Under the pieces are notes generated by a model. That model did no database searches. It was not told the DNA's origin and worked only from the letters and a program-made list of their open reading frames with translations. The position numbers and the translations under genes were made by a program. Below are positions 34,871 through 56,869 of a DNA stretch of 64,000 bases, piece by piece (the first letter of the stretch is position 1; each line of letters opens with the position of its first letter). Source of the stretch: Phycisphaerae bacterium (GTDB lineage Bacteria > Planctomycetota > Phycisphaerae > Phycisphaerales > UBA1924); NCBI GenBank assembly GCA_030432905.1, contig JAUILU010000001.1, forward strand, positions 372,001 through 436,000. The letters run 5' to 3'.

Positions 34871-35983
34871 TTAGTTGACAATCCGTCGCCAGCTGCCTGG
34901 GACGATCGAGTAGCCCTCGGTCTCGGTGAAGCCGCGTGGCGGACCGTTGGAAGCTGAGGGATGATCGTTGACGGTGACATAGAACACAGAAGAATCAACA
35001 ACCAGATCTCCAGTGACGAAGATCTGTCCGACATGGAGCATGCTGCCATCAATCTCAAGATCACCATTGATATAGATGAGGCCCTGCTGCGATACGCTTG
35101 AGAAGTCTGATTCGTATCGCATATCACCATCTACGATTAGTGTTGGTCCGCCATGAGCCCCAAAGGACAGCTTCGAGTCTGCGAAGGTCACACGCTGATT
35201 TCCGAGGTTTGTGATCACGAGCGTGCCCGCGACTCTGACTTCGAAGAGATCGAGGTTTTGCCCGCCGGCATCGATGACGTAGATCCCGTTCGTGTCCGGC
35301 TTCAGGCCGTACGGCGCAGTTGAGGAACTAAAGTTAAGTGATTCGATTCGACCACCGTGCTGCGCTCTTGTTATAACGGTTCCGGCGTTCTCCCAGATGC
35401 TAATAAGAGCAGGGTCTGGCAGGTCCACTGGATTTGCTTCGTCGACGAGCGGGGGGCTGTGCTGCCCCCTGCTTGTCGTGTAGTGATCGAGCGCCGTACC
35501 GCCGTCCTCAAGGGACATCGTGAACCGATCAACAACCAGGGCTCCGCCGACTGTGATTGATTCAGTTAGTGACGGGTGTGGATCGGTTGAACCGGGATCG
35601 ATCGTGACCTCGAACGTTTGAGTCGCAGTACCGACGGTACCGGTGCCCGTAATCGTGAAGCCCTCGGTTGTGTCGTCGCCTAGGTCGCCGTCGGGGTCGG
35701 TGATCGTAGCCGAGATCTGGCCGTTTCCGAGGTTCATGGTGCGGATCGGAGTACCCGACGTGATCGCGTCGCGCCAGTCTTCTTTGAGTGAGACAAGGTG
35801 GATGCCCCACTGCACAGCAGACTCGGCGAGCACCGCGGCCTCGTCCCGCTCGGCGTCGGCCCGCGCGATGGCGTTCTGAGACTGCATCATCTTGTAGCCC
35901 ATGAGACCAATCATGGTCACGATCATGGAGGAGACGAGCACGAAAACGTAAATGGTGCCGCGACGTGAAGAAGGCTGATTCAT
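34871..35983 (-). CDS. PilX/GspK-like protein with large beta-rich passenger region
   Basis: MNQPSSRRGTIYVFVLVSSMIVTMIGLMGYKMMQSQNAIARADAERDEAAVLAESAVQWGIHLV N-terminus; then repetitive beta-rich GDLEIDGS / GDLVVDSS segments. Last gene of the pilus-like operon. Confidence 0.65.
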   Translation of the reverse strand: MNQPSSRRGTIYVFVLVSSMIVTMIGLMGYKMMQSQNAIARADAERDEAAVLAESAVQWGIHLVSLKEDWRDAITSGTPIRTMNLGNGQISATITDPDGDLGDDTTEGFTITGTGTVGTATQTFEVTIDPGSTDPHPSLTESITVGGALVVDRFTMSLEDGGTALDHYTTSRGQHSPPLVDEANPVDLPDPALISIWENAGTVITRAQHGGRIESLNFSSSTAPYGLKPDTNGIYVIDAGGQNLDLFEVRVAGTLVITNLGNQRVTFADSKLSFGAHGGPTLIVDGDMRYESDFSSVSQQGLIYINGDLEIDGSMLHVGQIFVTGDLVVDSSVFYVTVNDHPSASNGPPRGFTETEGYSIVPGSWRRIVN

Positions 35984-36540
35984 GGCTGGACCACCTCCCA
36001 TTCGCTGCTGCGCAGGAAGGTCGTTGAGGCAATAGGCTTGCCCGCGTAGCTGGCCTCCACTGTGATCTTGCGGAGTCCCATTTCACTAGCGCTCACCGCG
36101 TTTGGATTCGAGAAGCCAACGACCTCGACGGTCACCGTTCTGGTCCAGCCGGTGTAGCCAGGCAGTACGTTGTCGTCCTGGTCTTTAGGAGGTGACTCTG
36201 TGTATCCGTGGTAGTTATCAATCACCGAGAAGAGGCTCCGCTGCCCCGCAGCTGAGACAACATTCGCGGCCTTTGCGTCAGCGCCATCTATCGTGTAACC
36301 GCCGGTCTTAATAAACAGGTCGATCCCATCCGTAGACCAATCCGCTACAGGGAGGTTTGAGATCTCTTCAGCGAGCGATCGGCAGAGCACCCGCCCTCTG
36401 GCCTGATTCGCGGCTCGGGCTTTGTGCCCCGCACTCGAAGCCGCGAGCGATAGAGCCGCGACCGCCAAGCCGCCCACGATAGCGGTCGCCATGACAACTT
36501 CGACCATCGCAAAGCCGCGGTATGTTTGCCTCAACATCAC
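35980..36540 (-). CDS. Minor pseudopilin (PilV/GspI-like)
   Basis: YRGFAMVEVVMATAIVGGLAVAALSLAASSAGHKARA N-methylation-like motif. Confidence 0.75.
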   Translation of the reverse strand: MMLRQTYRGFAMVEVVMATAIVGGLAVAALSLAASSAGHKARAANQARGRVLCRSLAEEISNLPVADWSTDGIDLFIKTGGYTIDGADAKAANVVSAAGQRSLFSVIDNYHGYTESPPKDQDDNVLPGYTGWTRTVTVEVVGFSNPNAVSASEMGLRKITVEASYAGKPIASTTFLRSSEWEVVQP

Positions 36541-37049
36541 GGCACCCTCGCGTTGAACAAACGGTACTCTGCGGACACGTTGACTGGTTCGCTGATCCCG
36601 GCGGAGATATCAACCCGGATTCGGTCAGCGGGCGAACTGGTCCGGCCTCTTGCAACGAGGCTTCCTGACTGGATCGGCGTGAACTTCATATCGATGACTG
36701 TCGCAAGCAGGTTGACCTGACCGCCGCCGTTGAACTCGCGCGTGAACGCGGTGCCGGCGGCCCCAGACCACTGGTACACCACAGCTTCTGGCGAAGTGTC
36801 GCCATCCTGATCCGGCAAGCGCAGGTTCAGGGTTCGAACATTTGGCATCGTGACCGAGCCAGCAAGCCTGATGTCATTGCCGAGCAGCGTAAGCGACTTG
36901 CCCGCCGCTGTCTGCATCTCAGCGAACCCGCCGGCTGTGGGCAGTGTCTTGGTGCTGATGACAATCGACGAACCGATCGCCGTCATGAGTATCCCCACGA
37001 CACTGAGACTGACGACGAGTTCAATAAGTGTGAAGCCACGACGTTTCAC
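36537..37049 (-). CDS. Minor pseudopilin (GspJ/PilW-like)
   Basis: [37 protein letters not shown]. Confidence 0.85.
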   Translation of the reverse strand: MKRRGFTLIELVVSLSVVGILMTAIGSSIVISTKTLPTAGGFAEMQTAAGKSLTLLGNDIRLAGSVTMPNVRTLNLRLPDQDGDTSPEAVVYQWSGAAGTAFTREFNGGGQVNLLATVIDMKFTPIQSGSLVARGRTSSPADRIRVDISAGISEPVNVSAEYRLFNARVP

Positions 37050-37669
37050 AGCAGCCCCCCGATCGAGAGCGAGATGCCGAGGATGTCAACTTTGATCGGC
37101 GGATCCGAGCTTTCCACATCTATGTCTTCATCTTCCGTGGGCTCGGCGAGGTTGAGATTGACGATCTGCACACTCGATAGCCCCTGTGTGAACACGATTC
37201 GTCGGCCTTCCCGGCCCGCGGTCAATGTCATCTGCCCAGACTCGAGCATCAGGCCGTGGCCTGAGATATCAAGCTGCGAATCGCCTCCAAACGAAACACC
37301 AAGCAGGTTCACGTTAAAGGGCTCTCTGCTCAGGTCGGTCACCTGATCAACCGCCGGGTCGCGTTCGCTCGGTTGACCGACCATTGTGTATGACTCGGTG
37401 TCTGCATCAACAACGATCGACATCGTACTGCTTGTTCTGTTCGCCTCGGCCGCCGTCACGTTTATGTCGGCGAGGACCTGCTGGATCGCGGAATCAACAC
37501 GGTAGCGTGTTGAAGCTCCAGAAAGCCTGGGTATCGCGATTACTGCGGTGACAGAAATAATGACGAGCACAACGATCAGCTCGACTAATGTAAACGCCCG
37601 CGTACGGCGTGAACCGTACGCGGCGTGAGATGATCTGGTTTGGGTTGCAATCTGCGTCATAGGACGCAC
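37046..37669 (-). CDS. Minor pseudopilin (GspH/FimT-like)
   Basis: RTRAFTLVELIVVLVIISVTAVIAIPRLSGASTRYRVDSAIQQVLADINVTAAEANRT. Confidence 0.87.
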   Translation of the reverse strand: MRPMTQIATQTRSSHAAYGSRRTRAFTLVELIVVLVIISVTAVIAIPRLSGASTRYRVDSAIQQVLADINVTAAEANRTSSTMSIVVDADTESYTMVGQPSERDPAVDQVTDLSREPFNVNLLGVSFGGDSQLDISGHGLMLESGQMTLTAGREGRRIVFTQGLSSVQIVNLNLAEPTEDEDIDVESSDPPIKVDILGISLSIGGLL

Positions 37670-37681
37670 CTCACCCGATGA

Positions 37682-38161
37682 TTAGAAGTCGTTCCACTGA
37701 TCGCCCGAGCCGTTAACCTCAGCGTCGGTGCAGTTGGCGGTGATGGTGCCCGAGGCAGCAACGTAGAGCCAGCCAATGCCCGCGCCGTCAGCAGCTGCGA
37801 CACCGTTGGAACCCTGGCGGGTGCCGACCGGGAGAGCCGGGACCGAACGGAGGTACGGGCCGTAGATGTAGGCACCGGTCTTGGTTGCGTTGGTGTTACC
37901 CGATGCGTCGGAGTAGAGCAGCATCTGGTCACTGAAGTCTGCAACGGTCGGGAATGCGCCGCCGTGCTCTGCCGAGTAAAGCTCGATCGCACCGCGGAGT
38001 GTTGCCAGGTTGGAGACGAGTGCAGACTCAGCCGCACCTTCGGCACCACGGCTCATTCGTGGAATCGCGACAGCGCCGATGACTCCGAGAATGACGACAA
38101 CGATTACAAGTTCAATAAGGCTGAACGCACGACGGCTTGACCGATTTCGAAACAACTTCAT
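37682..38161 (-). CDS. Major pseudopilin (GspG-like)
   Basis: RRAFSLIELVIVVVILGVIGAVAIPRMSRGAEGAAESALVSNLATLRGAIELYSAEHGG. Start set to ATG 38161. Confidence 0.88.
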   Translation of the reverse strand: MKLFRNRSSRRAFSLIELVIVVVILGVIGAVAIPRMSRGAEGAAESALVSNLATLRGAIELYSAEHGGAFPTVADFSDQMLLYSDASGNTNATKTGAYIYGPYLRSVPALPVGTRQGSNGVAAADGAGIGWLYVAASGTITANCTDAEVNGSGDQWNDF

Positions 38162-38265
38162 CCCATTTCCCCCTTTAAGGTTGGTGTGTGAAGAAGATCG
38201 GTTCAACAATCATGGGGCTTGATGACTCAGTCTGCGAATCGGCAGTATTTGCCTGTTGCAGGCCG

Positions 38266-38784
38266 TTATCGGTCGAGTCCAGGCCTTGCCAGGGGCAGGC
38301 GGATCTCGATCTCGCCGGACTGGAATATCGCCCCGTCCTTCTCGACTTTGATCAGTTTCACGCCGTCGATGGTCTCGCCGACCTTGATGAGCAACCCGTC
38401 AACGACAGCGATATCGCCGCCCTCTTGACTGAGGACCGAGGTCAGCCTGTGACGGGACGCGAACCCGCCTCCCGCTGTTGGCTCGGTGACTTTCGGAGTC
38501 CCGATCTCGATGTCGTCAACAGGCTCGCTAAATGCATCCAGCCTTCGCAGCGCCGGGATCAGCAGTTGCCCCTCCGCATTATCGAAGCGACCAGCCAACG
38601 GCTCACGCTCGATCGTCGGGGACTTCGAGGCATTCTGCTCAGGCTGACCGGCTTCGGCAGCAACCGGTGTCGCTTCGCCCACCCCCGCGTCTGCGCGTAA
38701 GACGAACTTATCGAACATAAGTCCACCGCCGGCTACAGCCAGAACGGCAACGTACACGAGATTTGGTTTCTTGTTCTCCGCCAC
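38266..38784 (-). CDS. GspB/PilP-like periplasmic-domain protein
   Basis: Single N-terminal TM; ASRHRLTSVLSQEGGDIAVVDGLLIKVGETIDGVKLIKVEKDGAIFQSGEIEIRLPL resembles a T2SS GspB/GspC HR-type domain. Start (GTG 38784) is tentative. Confidence 0.6.
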   Translation of the reverse strand: MAENKKPNLVYVAVLAVAGGGLMFDKFVLRADAGVGEATPVAAEAGQPEQNASKSPTIEREPLAGRFDNAEGQLLIPALRRLDAFSEPVDDIEIGTPKVTEPTAGGGFASRHRLTSVLSQEGGDIAVVDGLLIKVGETIDGVKLIKVEKDGAIFQSGEIEIRLPLARPGLDR

Positions 38785-38836
38785 GGTTCGAGTTTCATAT
38801 TCGGTGCCGCGGCGTGCAAGTGAGTTGGACGAGATA

Positions 38837-39400
38837 TCAGCCGCCCTTGCCCGCACCACCGGTATGACCGTCAGGAGCCGCATACCAGACCATGCTGAGC
38901 TGGAGCCTGCCTGTAATGTCATCGTCGGTTTTGATGCGCTCAAAGCGGATGCCTTCGAGGCCCGTGTCCGGGAACTGACGCAGGAGTTCTTCGAGGAAGT
39001 TTCCCGCTTCGACGTACCCGGTACGCCCAACCAGGCTAATCGCCACGGCTCGATATCTGTCGGTCCGAACTTCAGCCCCGGGACGCACCGATTCCAGAGT
39101 CATCCCCGCATCCTCGGCGATGCTCGTTACACGCGAGAGCCTTGTGTTCATCTGATCGATGCTCGAAAGCTCGATGTCAAGGTCTTCGAGGCGTTGCGTG
39201 AGCTGCTGTGCGGTCTCGGTCGCCCGGCTCTCGGACGACTTCTGCTCTGCCATCTTGTTCTTAGCGACCCAGAGCTCTGCCTTTAGAGACACCGTGTCCG
39301 CGTACGCGAGTTGCAGCGGCCGAACACCGCCGATGTACATGCCGGCGATCGCGACCGCGACCATGCCGACTCCCATCAGATCAACCGATTTGAGATTCAT
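38837..39400 (-). CDS. PilO-like protein
   Basis: N-terminal TM + coiled coil then ferredoxin-like NFLEELLRQFPDTGLEGIRFERIKTDDDITGRLQLSMVWYA; between PilN-like and GspB-like genes. Confidence 0.7.
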   Translation of the reverse strand: MNLKSVDLMGVGMVAVAIAGMYIGGVRPLQLAYADTVSLKAELWVAKNKMAEQKSSESRATETAQQLTQRLEDLDIELSSIDQMNTRLSRVTSIAEDAGMTLESVRPGAEVRTDRYRAVAISLVGRTGYVEAGNFLEELLRQFPDTGLEGIRFERIKTDDDITGRLQLSMVWYAAPDGHTGGAGKGG

Positions 39401-40005
39401 GGTGTGGCCTCTTCAATGATTTCACCGATCTCACATGCGATCTCGAACCCGACAGCGCTGCCGCTGACATCGGGGCGTGGCGTCGTGGCAACAAGCCGTA
39501 CTGAATCGAACAGTCTGCATTCTTCGAGGAAGAGCGCGTACTTCGTGGCATCGACCTGCAGCAGCGAGACGCCCGAGATCTTCACCCGGTAAGGCCCCGA
39601 AGCCGCGATGCTCGGCGGAGAGACTTCTGTTGGGTTATCACGCACAATCGACGTCTCGACCAGTTCGAGATACACGTCCTCGTTCAAGCCCGCCGCGAGC
39701 ACCGCAAGAAGCACGCTCCACTTGGGCTGCCCCGCGATGTCCTCGGCGACCCCGAGCTCGTGCGTTACCGTTTCGATCTGTTTCCATGCCGCCGCTTCAG
39801 AGGCGTCGAGCTGATTGATGACCGATTGCACGTTGTGCAGTTCATCCCGAACTGGTGTGTCCATGTCGCGCAGGAACACATTGGCCAAGACGCATGCGGT
39901 CACACCGAACAGGATCAGCGCCCCCACGCCTCGGATCCAAACGACCATTCTTCGACGGTACCTGATCTTCTCGCGATACGGCGCTGGCAGGAGGTTGGTT
40001 TCCAT
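39397..40005 (-). CDS. PilN-like protein
   Basis: METNLLPAPYREKIRYRRRMVVWIRGVGALILFGVTACVLANVFL: NLLP motif then TM. ORF-track start 40545 is an out-of-frame extension over pilM. Confidence 0.8.
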   Translation of the reverse strand: METNLLPAPYREKIRYRRRMVVWIRGVGALILFGVTACVLANVFLRDMDTPVRDELHNVQSVINQLDASEAAAWKQIETVTHELGVAEDIAGQPKWSVLLAVLAAGLNEDVYLELVETSIVRDNPTEVSPPSIAASGPYRVKISGVSLLQVDATKYALFLEECRLFDSVRLVATTPRPDVSGSAVGFEIACEIGEIIEEATP

Positions 40006-40892
40006 CACGCGGCCTCCTTGCTGCGCATGGCAAGCCCGATCGCGGTCGCCCACTTCGAGTCGAAGTTGATCCCGCTCAACCAAGGCTTCGGTGCCAGATC
40101 GATCGGCATGTCGTTGGTGATGTCGGCCTCGAAATCCTGCAGGATGATCTCGCAGACCTTGTCGTACACATCGGGTTGGCCCAGCACGACGATGGTCGCG
40201 TTCTCGAGCGACGGGAAACGAGACGCAAGGTAGTCGATTGTCCCGCCGATGCCGGCGCTGGCTTTCTGGATTACATCCGACCCGCTCGAGTGCGCGATGT
40301 TCCTGGCAAAGAGCACGTTGCTGCCTTCGAGCGCGTAGAGACGAACACTCCGGCGGCCAGCATCGATAATGACCCGGCTGTTGGCGCCGGTCACCCTTCC
40401 CAGTGCCACGACCTCGGGCTCGATCGCTTCGACCACGACACCTTCGTTCTCGAATGGCTGGATCATCTGTGTCGCGTCTTCGTGCGAGTAAGCGATTGAA
40501 AAGTACTCCGAAGCGCCCTGCCTGCCATCGCTTGGGAGATCCCACAGCCGAGACTCGAACGGGCCCTTGATGGTCTTTGACATCTCGGCATTGGCGAGCG
40601 ACTCGACCGGCGCACCGGATGACCTTGGCGGGAGTTCGAGTATCGAAGTCGCGAGCCTATCGGGCGAGGCGCTGATCGCGATCCGGTGCATGTTGACGCC
40701 TTGCCGCTGCATCGCACTGATGAGCCTCTGGACGTCACGTTCGATCGGACAGACGTGGTTCGGTGTCCTCTGCGTTTCTGTAGCCGCGACAACCTCAACG
40801 CCCGTGCCTGATTGGCGCAACGCCACAGCACGGAGCGTAGTGCTTCCGACGTCTACACCGATTGACAGTCTGCTGAGCACGTTGTTTCCCAT
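40005..40892 (-). CDS. PilM-like actin-fold pilus assembly protein
   Basis: LSIGVDVGSTTLRAVALRQSG...RVIIDAGRRSVRLYALEGSNVLFARNIAHSSGSDVIQKASAGIGGTIDYL. Confidence 0.85.
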   Translation of the reverse strand: MGNNVLSRLSIGVDVGSTTLRAVALRQSGTGVEVVAATETQRTPNHVCPIERDVQRLISAMQRQGVNMHRIAISASPDRLATSILELPPRSSGAPVESLANAEMSKTIKGPFESRLWDLPSDGRQGASEYFSIAYSHEDATQMIQPFENEGVVVEAIEPEVVALGRVTGANSRVIIDAGRRSVRLYALEGSNVLFARNIAHSSGSDVIQKASAGIGGTIDYLASRFPSLENATIVVLGQPDVYDKVCEIILQDFEADITNDMPIDLAPKPWLSGINFDSKWATAIGLAMRSKEAA

Positions 40893-42103
40893 TAGCCGGC
40901 CCCCGTCGAAGCTGTCAGGTCGAACAGCGGCAAGAAGAGGCTGAGCGCGATAAACCCGACGAACAAGCCGAGCACCACAAGGATCAACGGCTCGATAATG
41001 CTCGTGAGCGACCGAATCACGATGTCGTTGTCTTCATCCATAATGTCCGCGAGACTCATGAGCACCTCGCCGACCCGGCCTGTCTGCTCGCCGTTACGGA
41101 TTGCTTCACAGACCGACGTAGACAGCAGGCTCGACCCCGAGAACGCGTCGCTCATCGACTCGCCCCGCTCGACCTTGTCACGGGCGGACACGATCAGCTC
41201 TTCGTAGAGCACGTTGTTCGAGCTGTTCTGCGCAATCTCGAGTGATTCGAGCAACGGCACGCGGGCTTCCATCAGCACACCCAGAACTCGCGCGAACTTC
41301 GCGGTTTTGAACTCGCGAACAAGTTTGCCGAAGACCGGGATGCGGATATGAACGATGTCCTTAATCCGGTTGCCTTTCTCAGTGCGGATCCACTTGAATA
41401 AGCTGAACCCGGTGACGCCCACAACCGAGAGCACGATCCACCAGTAGGTCTTGGCGTACTCAGCGGTGACCATAATCATCGAAGTCGATGCGGGGATCGG
41501 CGCATCAAGGGTTTCGAAGAGTTCCTTGAACCTCGGTAGCACCGTGAACGCGAGCAGCACCAGGACGCCTGACGCGACCACCAGCAGGAGCGACGGGTAC
41601 ACCATCGCACCGGAGACGCTGTTACGAATCGACAGCTCTTGTCTGACGATCTTGGTGAGACGGTTGAGGATGTTCTGGAAGTCGCCGCCCGATTCGCCCG
41701 CGGCGATCATCGCGCGGTACAACTCGTCGAAGGCCGGGTACTTGGCCATCGCCTCGGCCAACGGCGTGCCCTCCTCGACATGCGACCTCAAGTCAGAAAG
41801 GACTTCCTTCCATTTCGCGTCGGAGGACTGATTCTCGACGGCTTCGAGCGCTTGAACGATCGGCGTGCCGCTGGTGATGAGCACCGACATCTGCCGGGTA
41901 AACGCTGCGACGTTCTTGAGCTGGCTGCCTGCGAACAGCGGCCTCGACACCTTCTCGCCTGTCGCCTTGCCGTCTTCGGCGATCGAGTCGACGTAGAGAC
42001 CATCTGCCTCGATCAGCGAGCGTGCCTCGGCCTCTGACGACGCTTCTTTTAGGCCGTTCTTCTTCGACCCGTCTTTGGTGTAAGCCGTGTACCGGTAGTT
42101 CAT
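40892..42103 (-). CDS. PilC/GspF family inner-membrane protein
   Basis: FTRQMSVLITSGTPIVQALEAVE...MIAAGESGGDFQNILNRL...CEAIRNGEQTGRVGEVL...FLPLFDL. Confidence 0.95.
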   Translation of the reverse strand: MNYRYTAYTKDGSKKNGLKEASSEAEARSLIEADGLYVDSIAEDGKATGEKVSRPLFAGSQLKNVAAFTRQMSVLITSGTPIVQALEAVENQSSDAKWKEVLSDLRSHVEEGTPLAEAMAKYPAFDELYRAMIAAGESGGDFQNILNRLTKIVRQELSIRNSVSGAMVYPSLLLVVASGVLVLLAFTVLPRFKELFETLDAPIPASTSMIMVTAEYAKTYWWIVLSVVGVTGFSLFKWIRTEKGNRIKDIVHIRIPVFGKLVREFKTAKFARVLGVLMEARVPLLESLEIAQNSSNNVLYEELIVSARDKVERGESMSDAFSGSSLLSTSVCEAIRNGEQTGRVGEVLMSLADIMDEDNDIVIRSLTSIIEPLILVVLGLFVGFIALSLFLPLFDLTASTGAG

Positions 42104-43857
42104 GCCGCCAACCTCGTTTCATTGGCGGCAGGGCCCTCATCTTCTTCCTGCCCATCGACATGCGTCACACGCAGCGCCTCTTCGAGACTCGTCAAGCCTT
42201 CCATAGCAACGCGCACCGCTTCTTCACGCAGCGATGGCACGCCCTGCTCACGCAGCTTGACCCGCAGCTCGTGCGATGGCGCACCGATGTGGACAAGCTT
42301 CCTGATCGCCGGCGTCACCGCCATGAGTTCGTAGACACCGACCCGGCCGCTGAAGCCTGAGTCGTGGCAGTTCTGACAGCCGGCACCCTTGTGGAAGGAT
42401 CTTGGCGACTCTGTCGAGAGCCCGGCGTCGAGCAGAGCCGCGTCGCTCGGGTAGTACTTCGAGACACATTGTGGGCAGATCTTCCGCAAGAGTCGCTGCG
42501 CCACGGACCCGATGATCGCGCCCGAGAGCAGGTACGACTCGATACCCATGTCAACCAGTCGCGCAACCGCACCCGGGGCGTCGTTCGTGTGCAGGGTCGC
42601 AAGCACGAGGTGACCCGTGAGCGATGCCTGCACCGCGACGCGAGCGGTGTCCTCGTCTCGGATCTCGCCGATCATGATCGTGTCAGGGTCCTGACGGAGA
42701 ATACTCCGCAGCGCCCGCGAGAAGCTCAGACCGATCTGCTCGTTCACCTGGATCTGGTTCACCAGACCGACCTGATACTCGACCGGATCTTCAACTGTAA
42801 GGATGTTTCGTTCTGGTGTTCGCAGCTGATCCAGCGCTGAGTAGAGCGTCGTCGTTTTACCCGAACCAGTAGGACCCGTCACGAGTAGCAAGCCGTGCGG
42901 CCTATCGAGGAGATCCCTGAACGTCGTCATGTCATCCTGGCGGAAACCAAGGTCTTCAAGGCGCACACGCAGGTTTGACTTATCGAGCACACGCGCCACG
43001 ATCTTCTCGCCGAGTAGCGTGGGCATACTCGACATACGGAGGTCAACCTCTCGGCCCTCGGCAATAATCCGCACACGACCCTCTTGCGGCAGACGCTTCA
43101 CGGCGATGTCCATCTTCCCGATGACTTTGAGTCGGCTGATGATCGCCGAGTGCATGCCCGGGGGTGGGTTCATCAGATCGCGGAGCACGCCGTCGATCCG
43201 GTAGCGGATCCGCGTGCCACGTTTGTCGGGCTCGATGTGGATATCGCTCGACCCGTCTTTAACCGCGGTCAGCAGCGCAATGTTGACGAGATTGACGATC
43301 GGGCTTCCCGCGATCATCTTGTCGAGGTCTGTTTCGGGGCCGTCGTCTACGGATTCACGCTCGACAACCTCAAGATCCTGATCGCCGAGCGACATCAAGA
43401 ATTCGTCTACATTAACGTTTCCGCCCTTGTACTTGCGCACATACTCGAGGATGTTCGCCTCGAGCGCGAGCACGGGCCTGATCTCGTACCCGGTCGCCGA
43501 CTTGAGTCTGTCGATCGTCGGCAGGCTCTTGGGGTCCATCATCGCAACCGTCAGCGTGTTCCCGACCTTGAACATAGGGATAACAACGGATTTCTCGCAC
43601 TCTTCTTCGCCGATCTCGGAGATCAGAGTCGGATCGATCAGGCCGTGACGCAGGTGACAGCCTCGCACGCCCATGCACTTGGCCAGCGAATGGACGAGCA
43701 CCTGCCCGGAGACGATGCCCTGATCGACGAGCAGCGCACCGAGTTTTTCGCCGGTTCTGGCCTGCTCCATGAGCGCGCGCTGCAGCTGCTCTTCGTTGAT
43801 GGCGCCATCTTCAATCAGCGCCTCGCCTACCCGCTTGTGTCGCCTACGCAGACTCAA
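42100..43857 (-). CDS. PilB/GspE family ATPase
   Basis: N-terminal MshEN-like region; GPTGSGKTTTLYSAL, EDPVEYQVGLVNQIQVNEQIGLSFSRALRSILRQDPDTIMIGEIRDEDTA, CPQC...CQNC zinc motif. Confidence 0.97.
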   Translation of the reverse strand: MSLRRRHKRVGEALIEDGAINEEQLQRALMEQARTGEKLGALLVDQGIVSGQVLVHSLAKCMGVRGCHLRHGLIDPTLISEIGEEECEKSVVIPMFKVGNTLTVAMMDPKSLPTIDRLKSATGYEIRPVLALEANILEYVRKYKGGNVNVDEFLMSLGDQDLEVVERESVDDGPETDLDKMIAGSPIVNLVNIALLTAVKDGSSDIHIEPDKRGTRIRYRIDGVLRDLMNPPPGMHSAIISRLKVIGKMDIAVKRLPQEGRVRIIAEGREVDLRMSSMPTLLGEKIVARVLDKSNLRVRLEDLGFRQDDMTTFRDLLDRPHGLLLVTGPTGSGKTTTLYSALDQLRTPERNILTVEDPVEYQVGLVNQIQVNEQIGLSFSRALRSILRQDPDTIMIGEIRDEDTARVAVQASLTGHLVLATLHTNDAPGAVARLVDMGIESYLLSGAIIGSVAQRLLRKICPQCVSKYYPSDAALLDAGLSTESPRSFHKGAGCQNCHDSGFSGRVGVYELMAVTPAIRKLVHIGAPSHELRVKLREQGVPSLREEAVRVAMEGLTSLEEALRVTHVDGQEEDEGPAANETRLAA

Positions 43858-45825: not shown

Positions 45826-48800
45826 CTAGAGCGTGTTACGCAGACGTCGCCCGCTATCTCGTGCAGGCTCCTCGGGCGGCACCAGCATTATCTGGACGTT
45901 AACGATCTCGAAGTCGTCGTAGTCGTCACCCGAACTGATCCGGCTCTCGATCTCGATCGTGTTCTCGCCCTCATTGAGCCACTCGGCGGGGAACGCCGCG
46001 AAGAACGGCCCGAAGCTGCCATCTCTTGGGGAACCAGTCAGCGGTTTGCGAACACGGTTGCCGTTGATACGGATCACGTTGTTGGTCTGCAGCCCCTTGG
46101 CCAGCATCGTCACACCCGCCAGTTCGCCGAGCATCGCGTGCTGCTCCGCGTTGACAACAAAGTCGGCCTCGTACACCGTGCCCTCGCTGTCTTTCTGGAA
46201 CTGGCTGTTAATCCGACCACCGAACGCGTTGTTGCCCAGGTGGTGCACCTCTGGGTTCTCTTCGATCGAGATCACCGCCTGACGTATCGGATCGAGCCGG
46301 ATCTCTCTGACTACGCCTTCTTCAAGGCGCGCTATTGGCAGGTTGAACGCCGAAGGTGTGTAGCCGGCGAGTGAAGCTGTGACCGCAACAAAGTCCGCGT
46401 CGAACTCCGGGCGGAGCACAAACGTGCCGTCGTCGCCAGTGTGCGTCTCAACAAGCCCGCCGAGGTCGGAGTCGATTTTCACGAGCGCATTCGGGATCGG
46501 CTCATTAGTCACCGCATCGCGGACAACACCCGAGAAATGACGCTCGATCGCTACCTGCTCAGGTGCCTCGATGCTTGCGGGCAGGGCAAGGTCGAGATCG
46601 AGCATCCCGATGTCTTGATCCTCAAAGTCAGGTCTAGACGCAGCGTTCGAGCGCATGTGCTCAGATACATCAGTTATCGAGTCGTCGAATGCGGATGCAT
46701 TGAGCGAGGCTTCATCAAGCAGAGGTTCAGCAAAGTCGGGGTTGCTGTCTCCTGAGAGCGCGAGTTCCGCTTCACCGATGTCCTCGAACGAGGCTTCAAC
46801 TTCGCCGACATCCGCCTGCTCTGTGGATGATTCCGCCGATTCTCGCATCACTTCACCAGGGAGGTCCAACTCGGCGAACGAATCGTCAGCCTGTGCCAGG
46901 TCTGGCATATCGAAGTCATACTCACGCGGAGCGGATGAATCTGTAGTCGGCAGATCCATATCAAGTCGCTCATCGATGATGCTCAACCCCACATCGGCGA
47001 TCTCGGTTTGCTGCGTAGAACCACCGATACGCACTGCCGCGGCCGACGACTCATCTGACATCAAAGATGGCGATACCGCAAGCTGAGTTTCTTCTCCGGT
47101 TCGCTCGCTGCCCGCGCGATCTGGCAACTCAACAGAATCCGTCACGCTCCCGATCGCCTCTAGTTCAGGCACGACCTGATCCATGACCTGCCTAGGGGTT
47201 GGTTCGCTGTGACTCGGCACCGACACCGGATTCACCGCATGCAGCGATTCGGACGATGAATCGAATGCCTGAAGCGTCAGCGCCTGATCTGAGAACTGAT
47301 CAGTCGCCGTGAGCTGAACCTCGGCCTGGCTCGGATCGGATTGACCACGCGCAAGCGCGGACTCTGACGTCGCCTGCTGTTCCGTCACAGCTTCGCGGCT
47401 CGAGGTCGCCGGCAATTCGTACGCGACTTCAGCCTGCTGCTGCGGCAATTCCGCCTGAGTCGTCTGGTCCTGCTCACGCGTCGGCATCGCCTGCGTCAAC
47501 CGAACCTCTGCCGGTGCGAGTTGGTCGTTCACCTGTGTCGGCGTGAGCTCAGACCGCAGTTCAGAGTCGAAGCGCGGCGCCTGAGTCAACTCCATCGCCG
47601 CCTGATCGACAGCCATCTCGATCGAATCGCTTTGAACTTCAGAAGCCACTTCTCCTCTAATCTGCGAGATCGCGCCCCCGCCAACCGACGACGAGACCAG
47701 CGTGACCTTCGATCCGCCGGGCGTGTTGAATAAGCCGTCGAGGTTGTTCGAGACCTGCCACACGGTCAAGAGCGCCAGTAGAAGCATGTGGACCAAACCC
47801 GAGATAATCAGGCACTTCGCCAGCAGACCCAGCTTTCGCCAGCGGGCCTTCCAGCGGTCGTCCGTCGTAATCTTCCGAAGCAGGGCGAGCAACGCAAGCA
47901 GGGCCAGCAGGAGCAAGAGCCAAGGCACAACGATCTTCAGGAAGTCGACGAGCGACATCCGAGCCGCGAGCATCTCGACGTCACGGTACACCTCGCGCGA
48001 ATGCGTGCGGTAGAGGTTATAGTCCCGGTCGTCGTCAGCACCATCAATGCGGTCAGAACTGAACGCTAGCCCGAAGCCGCCCATGCCGAGAGTCGGATCG
48101 AGTTCGTTCTGCGCTGTGTTAACACCGTCGCCGAGGTGCTCGATCGGAAAGTACTCGCCGTCAACGAGCCGAACGCGGTAGAGATCAAACCCGCCCACGC
48201 CGCCCGGCCTGTCTGACGCGAAGTACATGAAGTCGTTGACAGGGCTGACCTCGGGCGCGCCGTCGTTGAACGCGCTCGACAGTTCTTCAACGAGTGACGC
48301 CTCGGCGATACCGCGGTCGGTGATCTCCGCCGAGTAGATGTCGTACGGCAAGTTCTGAAACGACTCCCGCACGGTCGCTGGCCAGCGCCCGGAAGAATCG
48401 AGCACCTTCTCATCCGGGTTTCGTGGCCGATTAGATGCGAAATAGAATCGCATAGAGTCGGGCGAAATTGATGGGCCGTAGTCGTTGAACACGCTGTTGA
48501 CGCTCGATCCGAGCACGCGAGGCTCGCCCCAGCTGACGCCTTCGCGTTCAACAAACCAGATATCGTACCCACCGAGTGACCCCGGGCGGTCGCTGTAGAA
48601 ATACAGCCCGTCGCCGTCGGGCGTAAACGCGGGGCCGAGATCGTCGTACTCGGTATTCAGAGCGGCAACAGGTTCCGGCTCGGTCCAGCCATCGGGCGTG
48701 CGGATCGACTGGTAGATATCCGCACCGTCACCAGGCCGGCCTCGCACGAACAGCAGCGTCAGCCCATCGGGACTGAGCGTCGGTTCGTACTCGTCGTAGT

Positions 48801-49005
48801 CTGTGTTGAGACGATCGCCGAGCCATTCCGGCGGTTGCCACAGAACATCGCGCAGCTTGGCAACTTCTTTCGATGCCCTAATCGTGTCCGCATCCGTGTA
48901 CACCGCGCTCGAGCGCGGCAACGTGAGCCAGAGCGCGGCTCCAACGACAACCGCACCAAGAATCACGCCAAGCATGACCGGGAATGTCTTTGCCGATCGC
49001 ATCAT
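45826..49005 (-). CDS. Large PD40 (TolB-like) propeller protein with TonB/TolA-like TM helix, disordered linker and C-terminal carboxypeptidase-regulatory-like domain
   Basis: PD40 repeats (YDEYEPTLSPDGLTLLFVRGRPG, YDDLGPAFTPDGDGLYFYSDRPG, FNDYGPSISPDSMRFYFASNRP); TM pair LKIVVPWLLLLLALLALLALLRK...KCLIISGLVHMLLLALLTVWQ; Q/S/E-rich linker; HFSGVVRDAVTNEPIPNALVKIDSDLGGLVETHTGDDGTFVL. Confidence 0.8.
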   Translation of the reverse strand: MMRSAKTFPVMLGVILGAVVVGAALWLTLPRSSAVYTDADTIRASKEVAKLRDVLWQPPEWLGDRLNTDYDEYEPTLSPDGLTLLFVRGRPGDGADIYQSIRTPDGWTEPEPVAALNTEYDDLGPAFTPDGDGLYFYSDRPGSLGGYDIWFVEREGVSWGEPRVLGSSVNSVFNDYGPSISPDSMRFYFASNRPRNPDEKVLDSSGRWPATVRESFQNLPYDIYSAEITDRGIAEASLVEELSSAFNDGAPEVSPVNDFMYFASDRPGGVGGFDLYRVRLVDGEYFPIEHLGDGVNTAQNELDPTLGMGGFGLAFSSDRIDGADDDRDYNLYRTHSREVYRDVEMLAARMSLVDFLKIVVPWLLLLLALLALLALLRKITTDDRWKARWRKLGLLAKCLIISGLVHMLLLALLTVWQVSNNLDGLFNTPGGSKVTLVSSSVGGGAISQIRGEVASEVQSDSIEMAVDQAAMELTQAPRFDSELRSELTPTQVNDQLAPAEVRLTQAMPTREQDQTTQAELPQQQAEVAYELPATSSREAVTEQQATSESALARGQSDPSQAEVQLTATDQFSDQALTLQAFDSSSESLHAVNPVSVPSHSEPTPRQVMDQVVPELEAIGSVTDSVELPDRAGSERTGEETQLAVSPSLMSDESSAAAVRIGGSTQQTEIADVGLSIIDERLDMDLPTTDSSAPREYDFDMPDLAQADDSFAELDLPGEVMRESAESSTEQADVGEVEASFEDIGEAELALSGDSNPDFAEPLLDEASLNASAFDDSITDVSEHMRSNAASRPDFEDQDIGMLDLDLALPASIEAPEQVAIERHFSGVVRDAVTNEPIPNALVKIDSDLGGLVETHTGDDGTFVLRPEFDADFVAVTASLAGYTPSAFNLPIARLEEGVVREIRLDPIRQAVISIEENPEVHHLGNNAFGGRINSQFQKDSEGTVYEADFVVNAEQHAMLGELAGVTMLAKGLQTNNVIRINGNRVRKPLTGSPRDGSFGPFFAAFPAEWLNEGENTIEIESRISSGDDYDDFEIVNVQIMLVPPEEPARDSGRRLRNTL

Positions 49006-49015
49006 GACCTATCCC

Positions 49016-49429
49016 CTATCGCGTGGGCACGGTGTCCAAATACGGCTCTTGAATCCCCGACAGCTTGCACGCATCGAGCACACCAACAACCTGGCTGTAC
49101 GTCGCGGCCTGATCCGCGCGGATCGTCACCTTCTGCTCCGGATTTGCCGCGACGGCCTCCGACACAATCGCCCGCAGGTCCTCGATGCTCACTGTTCGCC
49201 CGCTGACGATGATCTCGCCGTCGGATTGAACGTTGATGATCAGTTCGCGCAGCGTCATCGAAATAGGCCCGCCGCTCTCGGCGACCGGGAGCGCGATCTG
49301 CATCTCTCGCTCCGATTGCTGGAACGTCGTTGCAACCAAGAAGAAGATCAGCAGCAGGAACACAATGTCGATGATCGGCGTGAGTTCGATCGACGGCGAC
49401 GAATCGGTTGACTTGGCTTTGAGTAGCAT
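49016..49429 (-). CDS. ExbD/TolR family protein
   Basis: SIELTPIIDIVFLLLIFFLVATTFQQSEREMQIALP...KVTIRADQAATYSQVVGVLDACKLSGI. Start moved to ATG 49429. Confidence 0.94.
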   Translation of the reverse strand: MLLKAKSTDSSPSIELTPIIDIVFLLLIFFLVATTFQQSEREMQIALPVAESGGPISMTLRELIINVQSDGEIIVSGRTVSIEDLRAIVSEAVAANPEQKVTIRADQAATYSQVVGVLDACKLSGIQEPYLDTVPTR

Positions 49430-49439
49430 GCTTGGGTCC

Positions 49440-50213
49440 TTAGCCGATCGCGCCGCCGCGCACCGGGAACGAATCGGCAACGACGCCGCTGTGCTCGTCT
49501 TCCAACTCTTCATCCGCGTGGCCGGTCGCGCTGGCGATCGCCTCGACCGCGTCCATGCACACCGAGTCCATCTGACGTGTTAGGTTCTCGATGCGGGAGG
49601 AGAACCAGTGGTACACAACCAGCGCCGGGATCGCAACGACGAGGCCCGCGGCGGTTGTGATCATGGCCTCATAGATTCCGCCTGCGAGCAGTTCGGTTTT
49701 ACCGAGCGAATCCGCCGAGACCGCGACGGTTTGGAACGCCTTAATCATGCCGAATATCGTGCCGACAAGACCGAGCAGAGGAGCGATCGCCGCGACGACT
49801 GACAACGCGCGCAGTCTTCTGCGGAGCATGAAGATCTCGTGCTCACCCGCGGCGGCCATGTGCTTCTCGACTGACTCCATCGGTCTGCCGATCCGCTCCA
49901 CACCACCGAGCACTGTGCGTGCGATCGGGCTGTCGGACTGCTTGCAGTAGTTGACCGCGTCTTGCTTGCCGCTTGTGCCGCGTTCGAGTAGCGGGAACAG
50001 GCCGCTGGCGAAGTTGTCGGGTATGACTTGTTTCTTGCGGAGCACGACCGCGCGTTCGACCGTGACCGTGACGATCACAAGCGAGCAGATCGCGATCGGG
50101 ATCATCATCAGGCCACCCTTGACCACGAAATCCCAGACCGAGTTGACTGCGACCTCCGTGGCCTCGGCTCCGGCGGCTTCCTGCGCGAGTGTGAGCAATA
50201 GTGACGTATCCAC
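49440..50213 (-). CDS. MotA/TolQ/ExbB proton channel family protein
   Basis: AIAPLLGLVGTIFGMIKAFQTVAVSADSLGKTELLAGGIYEAMITTAAGLVVAIPALVVYHWF. Confidence 0.96.
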   Translation of the reverse strand: MDTSLLLTLAQEAAGAEATEVAVNSVWDFVVKGGLMMIPIAICSLVIVTVTVERAVVLRKKQVIPDNFASGLFPLLERGTSGKQDAVNYCKQSDSPIARTVLGGVERIGRPMESVEKHMAAAGEHEIFMLRRRLRALSVVAAIAPLLGLVGTIFGMIKAFQTVAVSADSLGKTELLAGGIYEAMITTAAGLVVAIPALVVYHWFSSRIENLTRQMDSVCMDAVEAIASATGHADEELEDEHSGVVADSFPVRGGAIG

Positions 50214-50231: not shown

Positions 50232-53200
50232 TTACCCGCCCTGTTCTGTTCGTGGCATCAGCCGTTCGAGTCTGCGTTCGGACATCACGGCCCAGTCTGT
50301 TTCATTGAACCGCTCGATCACATCCGTGAACTGGCTGATCGCGTCCGCGTCACGGTCGAGTTCCTCGAAGCACCGGCCCGCCTCGTAGAGAGCCGCCGCC
50401 GACCACTTCGGGTAGGCGTACACAAGATCAACCCGCAGGAATTCGCGGACCGCTTCGTCGTGCTTACCCTGCGCGAAGAGGCATTCACCGATCTGGAACT
50501 GCGCCCTCGCGGCGGTCTCGCCGTCGTGGTGCTCGACGACCTTGCGGTACTCCGCGATCGCTTCGTCGTGCCTGCTCTGGTTCTCGATCGCCCACGCGAA
50601 TCCGAATCTCGCAAGGTACAACCGATCGTCGGTCGGATACTCGTCGATGAATTCTGTGTATGTATCTTCGGCTCTGGACCAGTACTGAAGCCCCCCGAAC
50701 ACCTCACCAAGCCTGAGCATCGCGACTGGACGGATCGCATCGTCATCGAACCCCTGCGCGATCTCAAACAGCATCTGCGCCTCGGACAGCTTACCAAGAT
50801 GCAGGTTCGATTCCCCGGCGAGCAGCGCCGACGACGCGTTGATCCGCTGGGTCGGCTCACGGGTGGCGAGTTCGTAGAGCGCATCGATCGCACGGGTGTG
50901 CTCGTTCATCTCTCTTGCACAGACGCCGAGCCTGTACATGGCCTGATCCGCAACCGTGGGGTCTAGCCCCTCGCGATCATGGAGAATCTGCTCGCAGAAT
51001 TCCGCAGCTTCGGCGTACTCGCCCGCGTTCATCGACAGCACAGCAAGCTCTAGCCCCGTGTGCTGCGCGAGCCGATCATCGGGATAGAGATCGAGCAGCA
51101 GAACGAACGAACCGGCCGCGTCTTCGGCGCGTTCGAGGGCAACGAGCGATCGGCCCCGTTCGTACAGAACAGTCGCCGCGGTCTCGGCTGCGAGTGCGCC
51201 AAGATCAGCTGGCCTGCGTGTGAACATCTCGGACGCCTCGACCGCCCGTTCGTGTTCACCAAGCCTGGCGAGCGCGATCACGCCGAGTGCGCCGGCCTTT
51301 GTCCGTATCTCAGCCTGCTCTGCGTTATCCGCCAGATCCGCGAGCACCCTGTACGCTCTCTCGTAGGAACCCGACGTCAGAAGAGCCCTGCCCTGTTCGA
51401 GTGACGAAGCGCCCGACAGCTCTCCATCGGACACCGACGCGGCACGCGCGAAGTACTCCGCCGCGTCCTCATCGTTGCCCGAATCTCGCGCAAGCTGTGC
51501 GAGTTGGCGGAGCGCGTAGCCGGCGACTTCGTCATCACCAGCCGAAGCCGCCGATTCAAACGCGGCAACAGCTTGGTCTGACTCGTCGAGTTCGAGCAGC
51601 ACGAGTCCGAGTTCGTACCTCGCCCGGCCGTCGGCATCATTGCCGGCGTCAACGATCTGGCTGAACGCCGACTGCGCCGCTCTGCGGTCCCCCGCCTGTT
51701 TGTGCGCCAGCCCAAGGCGAAGAGCCGCGGCGTCCCACGAGGGCACATCGGTGCCCAGCTCGACATACCGGCTAAGCCACGCCGCCGATTCCTGCCAATC
51801 CTCGTCGGAGTAAGCCATATCTCCGAGCGCTAGCAGTCCCGCCCTGTACTCGCTACTGACCTCGCCCGAATCGAACAAGTCGCTCAGCACGCGCCGTGCT
51901 TCTTCGCGTTCGCCGATCTGGCGGAGGCTCATACCGAGCCGGTACTGGACCGTACCACTTAGCCTGTGATTGGCCGGCATGTCTTCCCCCAGCCGAGCAA
52001 ACAGCCGAGCGGATGACTGGTAGTCGTCCTGCTGGTACGCGCTCTCTGCGGACAGGAATCTCGCTTCGTAAGCCGAATCACCGTCCAAACCGTCGGCGGC
52101 TTCGTCGGCGAGTCGGCTCGCGAGCCTTTGGTCATCTGAGTTCTGTGCAAAAGAAGCCGCAGCGAGCAGGGCTTGGTGAGAGAGCGAGTGGCCCGTGTAC
52201 AACTGGTTGAATCGGCGGAGTGTTCTGATCGCGGCCTCGTGGTCGCCGCTCTTTCCCTGCGCCAAACCAAGCTCGTACATCATCTCGGGAAGCAACTCGG
52301 AACGGTCGTGCTCCTCAACAGCGTCGGCCAGAAGCCGAGCCGCGCCTGCCGCGTCACCGGCCTCGCTGAGCGCCCGAGCCTGCCAATACGCCGCGTCGTC
52401 TTGCAACCGCTCGGGGCCGCGGGTCCGCACCTCATCGAGGAATTCATCGGCAGCCGCGTAGTCGCCGAGCAGCGTCGCGACCCGCCCGCGTTCAAGCTGG
52501 AGCTTGGCCATCGTCACTTCATCGAGATCGCGCTCACGGATCGTGCCCAGCATCTCGTTGGCTTCGGTGTGGCGATCAAGATCAGAAAGTACCTGCGCCA
52601 AGCCGAGCCTCGCGTCGAACGCGGGCATGCCCCCGGCTCGTTCCACAGCTCCCGAGTACGCCCGCAGCGCCTCGTCCAACCTGCCGATCGCTTGCAGGCT
52701 TCGACCCTGCGCAAGTAGTGCCGCTTGCGCGAGCGACGAGTTGCCCCTACCGATCCGTGCGAACCTGTCAGCCGCTGCTTGGTGCCGACCCAGCTTCGCC
52801 TCGGCAAGCCCCGCAAAGTAGGACGCCCGCTCGCCGACCGCACCGCTTAAATCAGACTCGTACTCTTCGAATGCCTCGATCGCGCGTTCCGATTGGTCCC
52901 CTCGGAATCGCGCCTCGACGAGTAACGCCGCGGCTTGGGGCGCCAGCTTGTGATCGCCGTGCCTTGAGAGCGCCCTTTCGAGCACACCCGCCGAGTCTCG
53001 TGATTCACCGATGGCGAGCTTGCTCCGCCCGACGAGCACCGCCGACTCCATCGCGTACTGGAACCTGTGTTTGTTCAGGATCGGCTCGAGCGCCTCGATC
53101 GTTTCGTCGTGCCTGCCAAGCCTGCTGGCCGCGACCGCCAAGCCGTAGCGTGCCTGGTCCGCGAGTTCGTGGTCGCCGTGCTTCTCGAGGAACCGCTTGT

Positions 53201-53360
53201 ACTCATCGATCGCGAGATCGTCGAGGCCCCTGCTGAGCATGCCTGAGGCGGCGTTGTAGTTGTCCACTGCCCTACCACCGTCCTGGGCCGCCGCCGGCGC
53301 GATAATCGCAAGCCCCGCCGATGCCGCAAGAACACCCGCCAATACACGTTTCTGGTTCAT
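50232..53360 (-). CDS. Large secreted tetratricopeptide-repeat protein
   Basis: Signal peptide MNQKRVLAGVLAASAGLAIIAPAAAQ; many TPR-like helices (e.g. AIDEYKRFLEKHGDHELADQARYGLAVAASRLGRHDETIEAL). Confidence 0.9.
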   Translation of the reverse strand: MNQKRVLAGVLAASAGLAIIAPAAAQDGGRAVDNYNAASGMLSRGLDDLAIDEYKRFLEKHGDHELADQARYGLAVAASRLGRHDETIEALEPILNKHRFQYAMESAVLVGRSKLAIGESRDSAGVLERALSRHGDHKLAPQAAALLVEARFRGDQSERAIEAFEEYESDLSGAVGERASYFAGLAEAKLGRHQAAADRFARIGRGNSSLAQAALLAQGRSLQAIGRLDEALRAYSGAVERAGGMPAFDARLGLAQVLSDLDRHTEANEMLGTIRERDLDEVTMAKLQLERGRVATLLGDYAAADEFLDEVRTRGPERLQDDAAYWQARALSEAGDAAGAARLLADAVEEHDRSELLPEMMYELGLAQGKSGDHEAAIRTLRRFNQLYTGHSLSHQALLAAASFAQNSDDQRLASRLADEAADGLDGDSAYEARFLSAESAYQQDDYQSSARLFARLGEDMPANHRLSGTVQYRLGMSLRQIGEREEARRVLSDLFDSGEVSSEYRAGLLALGDMAYSDEDWQESAAWLSRYVELGTDVPSWDAAALRLGLAHKQAGDRRAAQSAFSQIVDAGNDADGRARYELGLVLLELDESDQAVAAFESAASAGDDEVAGYALRQLAQLARDSGNDEDAAEYFARAASVSDGELSGASSLEQGRALLTSGSYERAYRVLADLADNAEQAEIRTKAGALGVIALARLGEHERAVEASEMFTRRPADLGALAAETAATVLYERGRSLVALERAEDAAGSFVLLLDLYPDDRLAQHTGLELAVLSMNAGEYAEAAEFCEQILHDREGLDPTVADQAMYRLGVCAREMNEHTRAIDALYELATREPTQRINASSALLAGESNLHLGKLSEAQMLFEIAQGFDDDAIRPVAMLRLGEVFGGLQYWSRAEDTYTEFIDEYPTDDRLYLARFGFAWAIENQSRHDEAIAEYRKVVEHHDGETAARAQFQIGECLFAQGKHDEAVREFLRVDLVYAYPKWSAAALYEAGRCFEELDRDADAISQFTDVIERFNETDWAVMSERRLERLMPRTEQGG

Positions 53361-56014: not shown

Positions 56015-56869
56015 TCAATCCACACCTGATTCGGCATCAGCCCAAGGTGTGCGGACCCGCCAGATGCACAGACCCGATGCTTTAGGTGTCCCCGTTGCCC
56101 GCCCGCTAGTGAAGTACAGCCAGTTCCCATCGGGGCTCAGGCAAGGGCTGCCGTCGATCGCGCCCGTGTTGAATGGCAGCAGTTCTGGCTCGCTCCAGCC
56201 ATCTTCTGTCCGTTCGCTCATGTAAAGATCCGACAACCCCGGCCCCTCGGGCTCGCCCATCCGCACAAAGATCAACCGTTTCCCGTCGGGCGTGAGAAGC
56301 GCATCGTGTTCACGGTATCGCGTGTTGATCGGCGCGCCGAGCCGGTCCGGCTTGCCCCAGCCTTCACCGTCGGGCTGGGCGAGGTAGATATCCCAGTTCC
56401 CGGCCGCCTGCCTCGTAAAGCACAGCTCGCCGTCCTTTGACACCGTGGGGTAAGCCTCGGGCTCTCTGGTGCTGATCTCGCCCGCTACCTCCGAAGGCTC
56501 AGACCACTTCCCATCCTCGTCGCGCTGCATCGTCCACACGTCGGCATCGCGGTACATCAGAAAGCGTTTGCCGTCGGGCGAAAGATGCCCGTCCCCGGCA
56601 TCGACGCCGTCGAGCTGGCCGTCGAAGTAGTCCGTTTGCTCCCACGCGCCATCAACAAGCCTGAGCGATTCGATCGTGCCCACGCCGGTGGTATCGTCGT
56701 ACCGGGTCAGCACCAGCAGACCGCCCTCGGGCGAGAGCGTTGTGTTAAACTCCGTGTTCGTCGTCGAGACAACGCCCGGCCCGACCAGCTCGGGTGTGCC
56801 CCACCCTTGTTCTTGAGTTTCTTGTTCCGAAACCAAAACTAGTGCGCACAACACGCCGACACAGACCAT
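56015..56869 (-). CDS. PD40 (TolB-like WD40) repeat protein
   Basis: Repeated blocks: DGHLSPDGKRFLMYRDADVW, AYPTVSKDGELCFTRQAAGNWDIYLA, HDALLTPDGKRLIFVRMGE, GSPCLSPDGNWLYFTSGR. Confidence 0.85.
   Translation of the reverse strand: MVCVGVLCALVLVSEQETQEQGWGTPELVGPGVVSTTNTEFNTTLSPEGGLLVLTRYDDTTGVGTIESLRLVDGAWEQTDYFDGQLDGVDAGDGHLSPDGKRFLMYRDADVWTMQRDEDGKWSEPSEVAGEISTREPEAYPTVSKDGELCFTRQAAGNWDIYLAQPDGEGWGKPDRLGAPINTRYREHDALLTPDGKRLIFVRMGEPEGPGLSDLYMSERTEDGWSEPELLPFNTGAIDGSPCLSPDGNWLYFTSGRATGTPKASGLCIWRVRTPWADAESGVD

Follow-up and report, generated by a model that had tools for sequence, protein, structure and literature searches.

The window considered here, i.e., the whole stretch of 64,000 nucleotides from a Phycisphaerae bacterium (assembly GCA_030432905.1, contig JAUILU010000001.1, positions 372,001 to 436,000), carries on its minus strand a four-gene cassette, the last gene of which encodes a protein of 1059 amino acids (aa) with a β-propeller followed by an internal transmembrane (TM) helix that bears an SxxxH motif. 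Most likely this protein is a force transducer that is driven by the proton motive force (PMF) and served by its own proton motor in the inner membrane; it belongs to a conserved, seemingly undescribed family of putative envelope energy transducers of Planctomycetota and their relatives. No published account of propeller-fused transducers was found in literature searches or in the main text of PMC12204202. The cassette and the parts of the protein, in window positions, are as follows.

45826..49005, minus strand: propeller-TM hairpin-linker-head protein, putative transducer, 1059 aa from ATG; the head is a carboxypeptidase-regulatory-like domain (CRD) with a jelly roll
48922..48978, minus strand: TM1, aa 10-28 (hydropathy; helix 4-28 in the AlphaFold2 model)
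47965..48864, minus strand: five-repeat PD40 β-propeller, PorE/TolB-like, about aa 48-347 (Pfam, NCBIfam, AlphaFold2, Foldseek)
47875..47940, minus strand: TM2, about aa 356-377, predicted to run from periplasm to cytoplasm (hydropathy at aa 358-376, model)
47815..47874, minus strand: short basic loop, aa 378-397, predicted to be cytoplasmic (net charge across relatives)
47752..47814, minus strand: TM3, aa 398-418, with S402-x3-H406-x6-L413, predicted motor-binding helix (hydropathy at aa 398-416, conservation)
47788..47802, minus strand: codons from S402 (47802-47800) to H406 (47790-47788)
47689..47712, minus strand: motor-box-like β strand SKVTLVSS, aa 432-439, then the conserved QIRG, aa 448-451
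46543..47688, minus strand: low-complexity linker of ~400 aa rich in Q, S, E and A (about aa 440-821)
46285..46542, minus strand: CRD, a transthyretin-like domain, aa 822-907 (Pfam, model, structure matches)
45874..46284, minus strand: jelly-roll domain resembling carbohydrate-binding modules (CBM), aa 908-1044 (model, Foldseek)
49016..49429, minus strand: TolR/ExbD-like gene (longest open reading frame, ORF, to 49513; conserved start Met29, pore Asp49, ORF numbering)
49440..50213, minus strand: predicted TolQ/ExbB-like proton-channel gene (S44, T152, T187 and P196 conserved)
50232..53360, minus strand: exported TPR protein of 1042 aa with a signal peptide and YbgF/CpoB-type repeats

A preliminary description of this DNA had read from its letters one ORF with three TM segments, PD40 repeats, SxxxH, a linker of about 400 aa and a CarboxypepD_reg-like domain, and this anatomy was borne out by an ORF check, hydropathy and Pfam. 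Exactly three TM-like segments were obtained by hydropathy (aa 10-28, 358-376 and 398-416). In Pfam the PD40 repeats reach E 1.5e-26, and CarboxypepD_reg is matched over aa 825-887 with E 1.3e-6 and 29.1 bits, slightly below the cut-off of 32.3. The AlphaFold2 model (mean predicted local distance difference test, pLDDT, of 84.5) contains TM1, the propeller and the helical hairpin. TM1, as signal anchor or signal peptide, is predicted to direct the export of the propeller; TM3 should then run from inside to outside and carry its motif on the cytoplasmic face, the arrangement known from TonB and TolA, and this conclusion is independent of TM1 cleavage. For comparison, relatives were gathered into an enlarged set of 81, no member of which is more than 97% identical to another. 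Among relatives the loop between TM2 and TM3 has a mean net charge of +2.3 and is positive in 66 of 78 picked sites (averages that include a few wrong sites, chosen by the motif picker in several toroid-containing relatives), and its basic character fits an N-in topology. The cytoplasmic placement of the motif, proposed at the outset, thus agrees with loop charge, hydropathy and the modelled hairpin.

S402 and H406 stand four residues apart, toward the N-terminal side of TM3. In a first alignment of 49 rows H406 was present in 48 and S402 in 46, and the motif scan of the 81 relatives found His at the expected position in 78; the residue at 402 is Ser in 73 of these and Ala in the other 5. The proposal of a transducer had been tied to conservation of SxxxH in orthologs, which these counts establish. 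Column entropy over the 78 aligned relatives is 0.34 bits at S402 and 0.00 bits at H406, the lowest values of the hairpin region, and the other TM3 positions near them vary among hydrophobic residues. Three relatives (L080, L132 and L139) fail the scan, of which L139 reads ALVLH by eye, so that true losses of the His number two. The replacements of Ser by Ala with retained His are consistent with the His being the essential residue of the motif, as the literature has it (PMC12215075), and L413, seven residues after H406, completes the S-H-L of the SHLS motif. Since the motif is short, a leucine-rich TM helix might carry it by chance; however, 73-78 of 81 relatives, which share roughly 33-50% identity, retain it, against a background of SxxxH at the equivalent position in 3 of 863 TM-like segments from other ORFs of the fetched loci, and this explanation, to which we give almost no weight, is already effectively refuted.

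After TM3, an alternating hydrophobic strand (V434/L436) and QIRG are conserved in the 78 aligned relatives. When compared by eye, KVTLV of the window protein resembles ISVTMV of TonB and IDAVMV of TolA (both E. coli) at similar distances from the His, so a motor-box β strand appears, judging from sequence, to follow the TM helix; according to PMC12204202, 93% of TolA and every TonB have this box. The neighbouring genes point in the same direction. On one strand the order is TPR-ExbB-ExbD-transducer, with operon-like spacing of ~18, 10 and 10 base pairs if ExbD begins at Met29, a start present in 46 of 47 relatives. Of 80 non-window loci, 74 keep both order and strand; among the six exceptions, five lie close to a contig edge and one (L115) is a tandem copy. 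The linkage to adjacent exbB and exbD, another point on which the preliminary description rested its case, is therefore upheld, while the TPR partner gene and the motor box had been overlooked there. At the tandem locus (L115:3441-17161) two TPR-ExbB-ExbD sets stand on one contig, the second after the first transducer gene.

The motor genes match their Pfam families (ExbD PF02472, E 1.1e-29; ExbB PF01618, E 1.0e-29), and with NCBIfam both are nearer to the TolQ/TolR than to the ExbB/ExbD models, yet under the equivalog cut-offs. S44, T152 and T187 of ExbB are each present in 50 of 50 relatives and, together with P196, align with TolQ S28, T145, T178 and P187; ExbD D49, found in 47 of 47, aligns with TolR D23. 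In cryo-electron microscopy TolQ S28 was seen to hydrogen-bond TolA H22 (PMC12583513). The TPR protein passes TIGR02795 (212.8 bits against a cut-off of 90.1). The downstream histidine kinase, STAS and type II secretion-type genes were considered as parts of the system and rejected, as histidine kinase matches recur only sporadically in relatives. These genes include a type II secretion/type IV pilus-like cluster at 34871-43857 of the window (minus strand; ATPase with MshEN/T2SSE, T2SSF, a PilN-like and several pseudopilin-like proteins), which a STAS protein and a PAS histidine kinase separate from the transducer gene.

From these observations we infer motor binding, PMF dependence and force transfer in the following manner. 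TM1 would export the five-bladed propeller into the periplasm, TM2 would bring the chain back to the cytoplasm and TM3 would cross outward, which would bring S402 and H406 to the flank of the ExbB/TolQ pentamer, the binding site of TonB and TolA. The passage of protons through the adjacent ExbB-ExbD (TolQ-TolR-like) motor would then act on TM3 and the motor-box strand, and the long flexible linker, the length and sequence of which differ from relative to relative, would pass the force to the C-terminal head (CRD and jelly roll here; a toroid or both in relatives), which may take hold of a partner in the outer membrane, of peptidoglycan or of a glycan. The propeller itself would remain at the inner membrane, probably docking the large TPR protein of the cassette. 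Several observations weigh against this model. Both relatives without the His, L080 and L132, keep the cassette; the final Ser of SHLS is not conserved, being Q in the window protein; the motif lies in an internal hairpin (TM3), whereas in TonB and TolA it is N-terminal; and TolQ Trp32, beside the TolA contact, is replaced by Leu/Val in the cassette ExbB. The cassette is also patchily distributed, since the same-class search, which scored the top three candidates per genome, gave matches in 55 of 248 genomes, and this argues against a universal role. The two His-less, cassette-borne relatives (L080:6958-12192 and L132:4436-8563) offer natural test cases for motor drive.

The propeller had been called TolB-like, and the PD40 fold stands, but TolB is too specific a name. 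It consists of five sequence repeats, and among NCBIfam models PorE (NF052230; E 1.6e-37, 129 bits against a cut-off of 600) scores far above TolB (TIGR02800; E 3.8e-5, 22.8 bits against an equivalog cut-off of 343), both staying under their cut-offs; a related OmpA-type integrity protein model, also under its cut-off, beats TolB as well, and Pfam gave no match to a TolB_N domain in the 1059-aa protein. Z-scores of the structure comparison favour five-bladed folds, with glycoside hydrolases and phosphorylases as the best; these matches are read as a shared five-blade fold rather than as a sign of enzyme activity. A stand-alone PD40 protein of 284 aa without the TM hairpin, a propeller paralogue, lies near the cassette (window 56015-56869, minus strand).

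These results bear on the idea of a literal one-chain TolB+TolA, in which the propeller binds or mobilises a Pal-like lipoprotein and the same chain gives the TolA stroke. In its favour, TolB structures fill all the top places by E-value when the propeller is compared with Foldseek (1c5k, E 1.3e-12), the motor genes lean to TolQ/TolR and the TPR protein exceeds the cut-off of the YbgF/CpoB model. Moreover, the host genome, in which TolB_N was not detected, has three OmpA-domain proteins, i.e., MotB and two with lipobox-like N-termini, and one unlinked OmpA-domain lipoprotein (lipobox LAGC) is Pal-like. Against this stand the five repeats instead of six blades, the PorE model, the missing TolB_N domain, a distal head that is a different domain and a cassette without a pal gene. 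Furthermore, since TM2 (and TM1, if not cleaved) fixes the propeller to the inner membrane, the propeller cannot be a soluble Pal carrier like TolB. With a propeller that resembles PorE and stays at the inner membrane, the literal version is weakened and unlikely; of the one-polypeptide TolB+TolA/TonB proposed initially there remains a helix, predicted to bind the motor, that lies midway in a propeller protein, with ExbB and ExbD adjacent.

The C-terminal head is modelled confidently (pLDDT 89), although a sequence search of it against PDB gave no significant match. The CRD superposes on the transthyretin-like domain of carboxypeptidase D (Z 12.5, root-mean-square deviation, rmsd, 1.9 over 80) and on the N-terminal extension domain of SusC (9hfj; Z 11.4, rmsd 2.7 over 79), the jelly roll on the carbohydrate-binding-like domain of cellulose synthase BcsB (Z 10.4, rmsd 3.3 over 117 residues), with CBM35 and rhamnogalacturonan lyase among its Foldseek matches. 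The carboxypeptidase-regulatory-like domain was thus recognised correctly from the letters, the exchange of heads among relatives having been missed. The head is CRD-jelly roll alone in 16 relatives and the window protein, a toroid followed by CRD-jelly roll in 17, and an α/α toroid related to squalene-cyclase and pectate-lyase models in 37 complete and 4 truncated relatives; six relatives are cut before the head. Relatives thus keep the motor-binding part but change the distal head, so that the helix, the motor box and the motor behave as a reusable module. Further variation was seen at L076:563-5797, where an extra toroid-like region and two more TM segments stand between propeller and motor hairpin, and at L133:6174-11622 (also L134, L135, L136, L138 and L145), where a shorter tandem relative (~800 aa) precedes the transducer gene. 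These tandem relatives come from Verrucomicrobiota and some Kiritimatiellia and hold a toroid domain between two propeller-profile segments; the L145 locus ends before its second gene.

Two other roles can be weighed by such heads. The protein could be an inner-membrane PorE-like scaffold or glycan sensor, the hairpin of which recruits the motor for gating or positioning and not for pulling, while the head binds polysaccharide. The PorE domain set (TPR, five-bladed propeller and CRD; PMC5053529, PMC7192894) is present with TPR as a neighbour gene, and the jelly-roll and toroid heads resemble sugar-active proteins, but a conserved His, a motor box and a linker of such length typify force transducers and are not required for scaffolding alone, which leaves this role improbable, to the same degree as the literal TolB+TolA. 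Replacement of TonB in energising outer-membrane glycan uptake is suggested by the SusC-type likeness of the CRD and by the CBM-like head; we regard it as quite improbable, because the host genome gave no match to TonB-dependent receptor barrels or TonB_C (absences that, like that of TolB_N, are not absolute, the genome being 94.75% complete), and no SusC/D or carbohydrate enzymes were seen beside the cassette within the window.

The force-transducer family was traced further. Degenerate patterns built from the single sequence retrieved no relatives; an alignment query did. A phylum-wide profile search gave matches in 50 of 392 genomes, and a scan of named genomes gave close matches in Phycisphaerae, other Planctomycetota, Kiritimatiellia, Opitutia and Verrucomicrobiales, the closest being Phycisphaera sp. 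isolate Bin4 (79% identity). Matches in Bacteroidota and similar groups aligned the propeller region alone, with no cassette alongside. A quick tree places the rows of Kiritimatiellota and Verrucomicrobiota together, apart from nearly all planctomycete rows; one long-branch row of the window's own class joins the former. TolB_N was found in 4 of the 248 genomes of the class (3 above the cut-off) and TonB_C in 95, at times alongside the propeller-transducer family, so the two are not mutually exclusive. As TolB_N is nearly absent from the class, the family is a concrete candidate for energising the outer membrane in TolB-less planctomycetes, and a replacement of Tol-Pal by it is possible. A broader proposal, that PVC-wide modular envelope motors (TPR, TolQR-like motor and propeller/SxxxH hairpin transducer with interchangeable CRD-jelly-roll or α/α-toroid heads) perform the outer-membrane-to-cell-wall coupling of Tol-Pal in TolB-lacking bacteria, is offered only tentatively.

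The same genome holds four MotA/ExbB genes, i.e., the cassette ExbB, a flagellar MotA, a lone ExbB and an ExbB in a vWA cassette. The lone TolQ/ExbB-family gene (L094:8223-9086) has no ExbD or transducer seen alongside. In the vWA cassette (L095:4188-10616, G000:C1 about 184 to 191 kb) a vWA transducer with SLLVH in its TM segment has as neighbours an ExbB gene, a pair of ExbD genes and two long proteins for which Pfam gives no match. It matches the force transducers with a vWA domain that Williams-Jones et al. (2025; PMC12204202) reported for PVC bacteria, and gives an in-genome parallel. Those transducers share with the window protein the SHLS helix, TPR and TolQ/TolR-like neighbours, occurrence in Planctomycetes and Verrucomicrobia and a head unrelated to TonB or TolA; they differ by the vWA head and paired TolR genes, which the window cassette lacks, and are without propeller, CRD or toroid.

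With PorE/PG1058 of type IX secretion in Bacteroidetes, the domain order of which is TPR, five-bladed propeller, CRD and OmpA domain (PMC5053529, PMC7192894), the window shares TPR-propeller-CRD if the neighbouring TPR gene is counted. However, here TPR is a separate gene, the propeller is set apart from the CRD by a hairpin and linker, and the OmpA domain gives way to a jelly roll. As a lipoprotein of the outer membrane, PorE carries an OmpA-type peptidoglycan domain, and no motor hairpin has been described in it, whereas in the 1059-aa protein neither an OmpA match (Pfam) nor a lipobox was found and there are three TM segments instead. TolB is alike in its PD40 propeller and the top Foldseek matches, but has six blades and a TolB_N domain and is a soluble periplasmic protein. 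The cassette TPR protein passes TIGR02795 as CpoB/YbgF would, yet its 1042 aa and many repeats contrast with about 260 aa in E. coli. The likeness to TonB and TolA comprises a TM helix with S-x3-H-x6-L, a motor-box-like strand soon after it, a long periplasmic linker, a C-terminal head and adjoining ExbB/TolQ and ExbD/TolR genes. The differences are that the motor helix is the third TM behind a propeller and not the N-terminal TM, and that the head of the family is CRD and jelly roll or toroid and not the TonB_C/TolA_III fold (Pfam gave no match to these domains in the 1059-aa protein). Most likely the protein works like TonB and TolA while being, by its membership features, not TonB, TolA or TolB. 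The described TonB/TolA-type transducers found in the literature, including the vWA ones of 2025, begin with the motor helix; in the window protein the predicted motor helix is embedded behind an exported propeller, so that the chain would have a periplasmic domain on either side of it.

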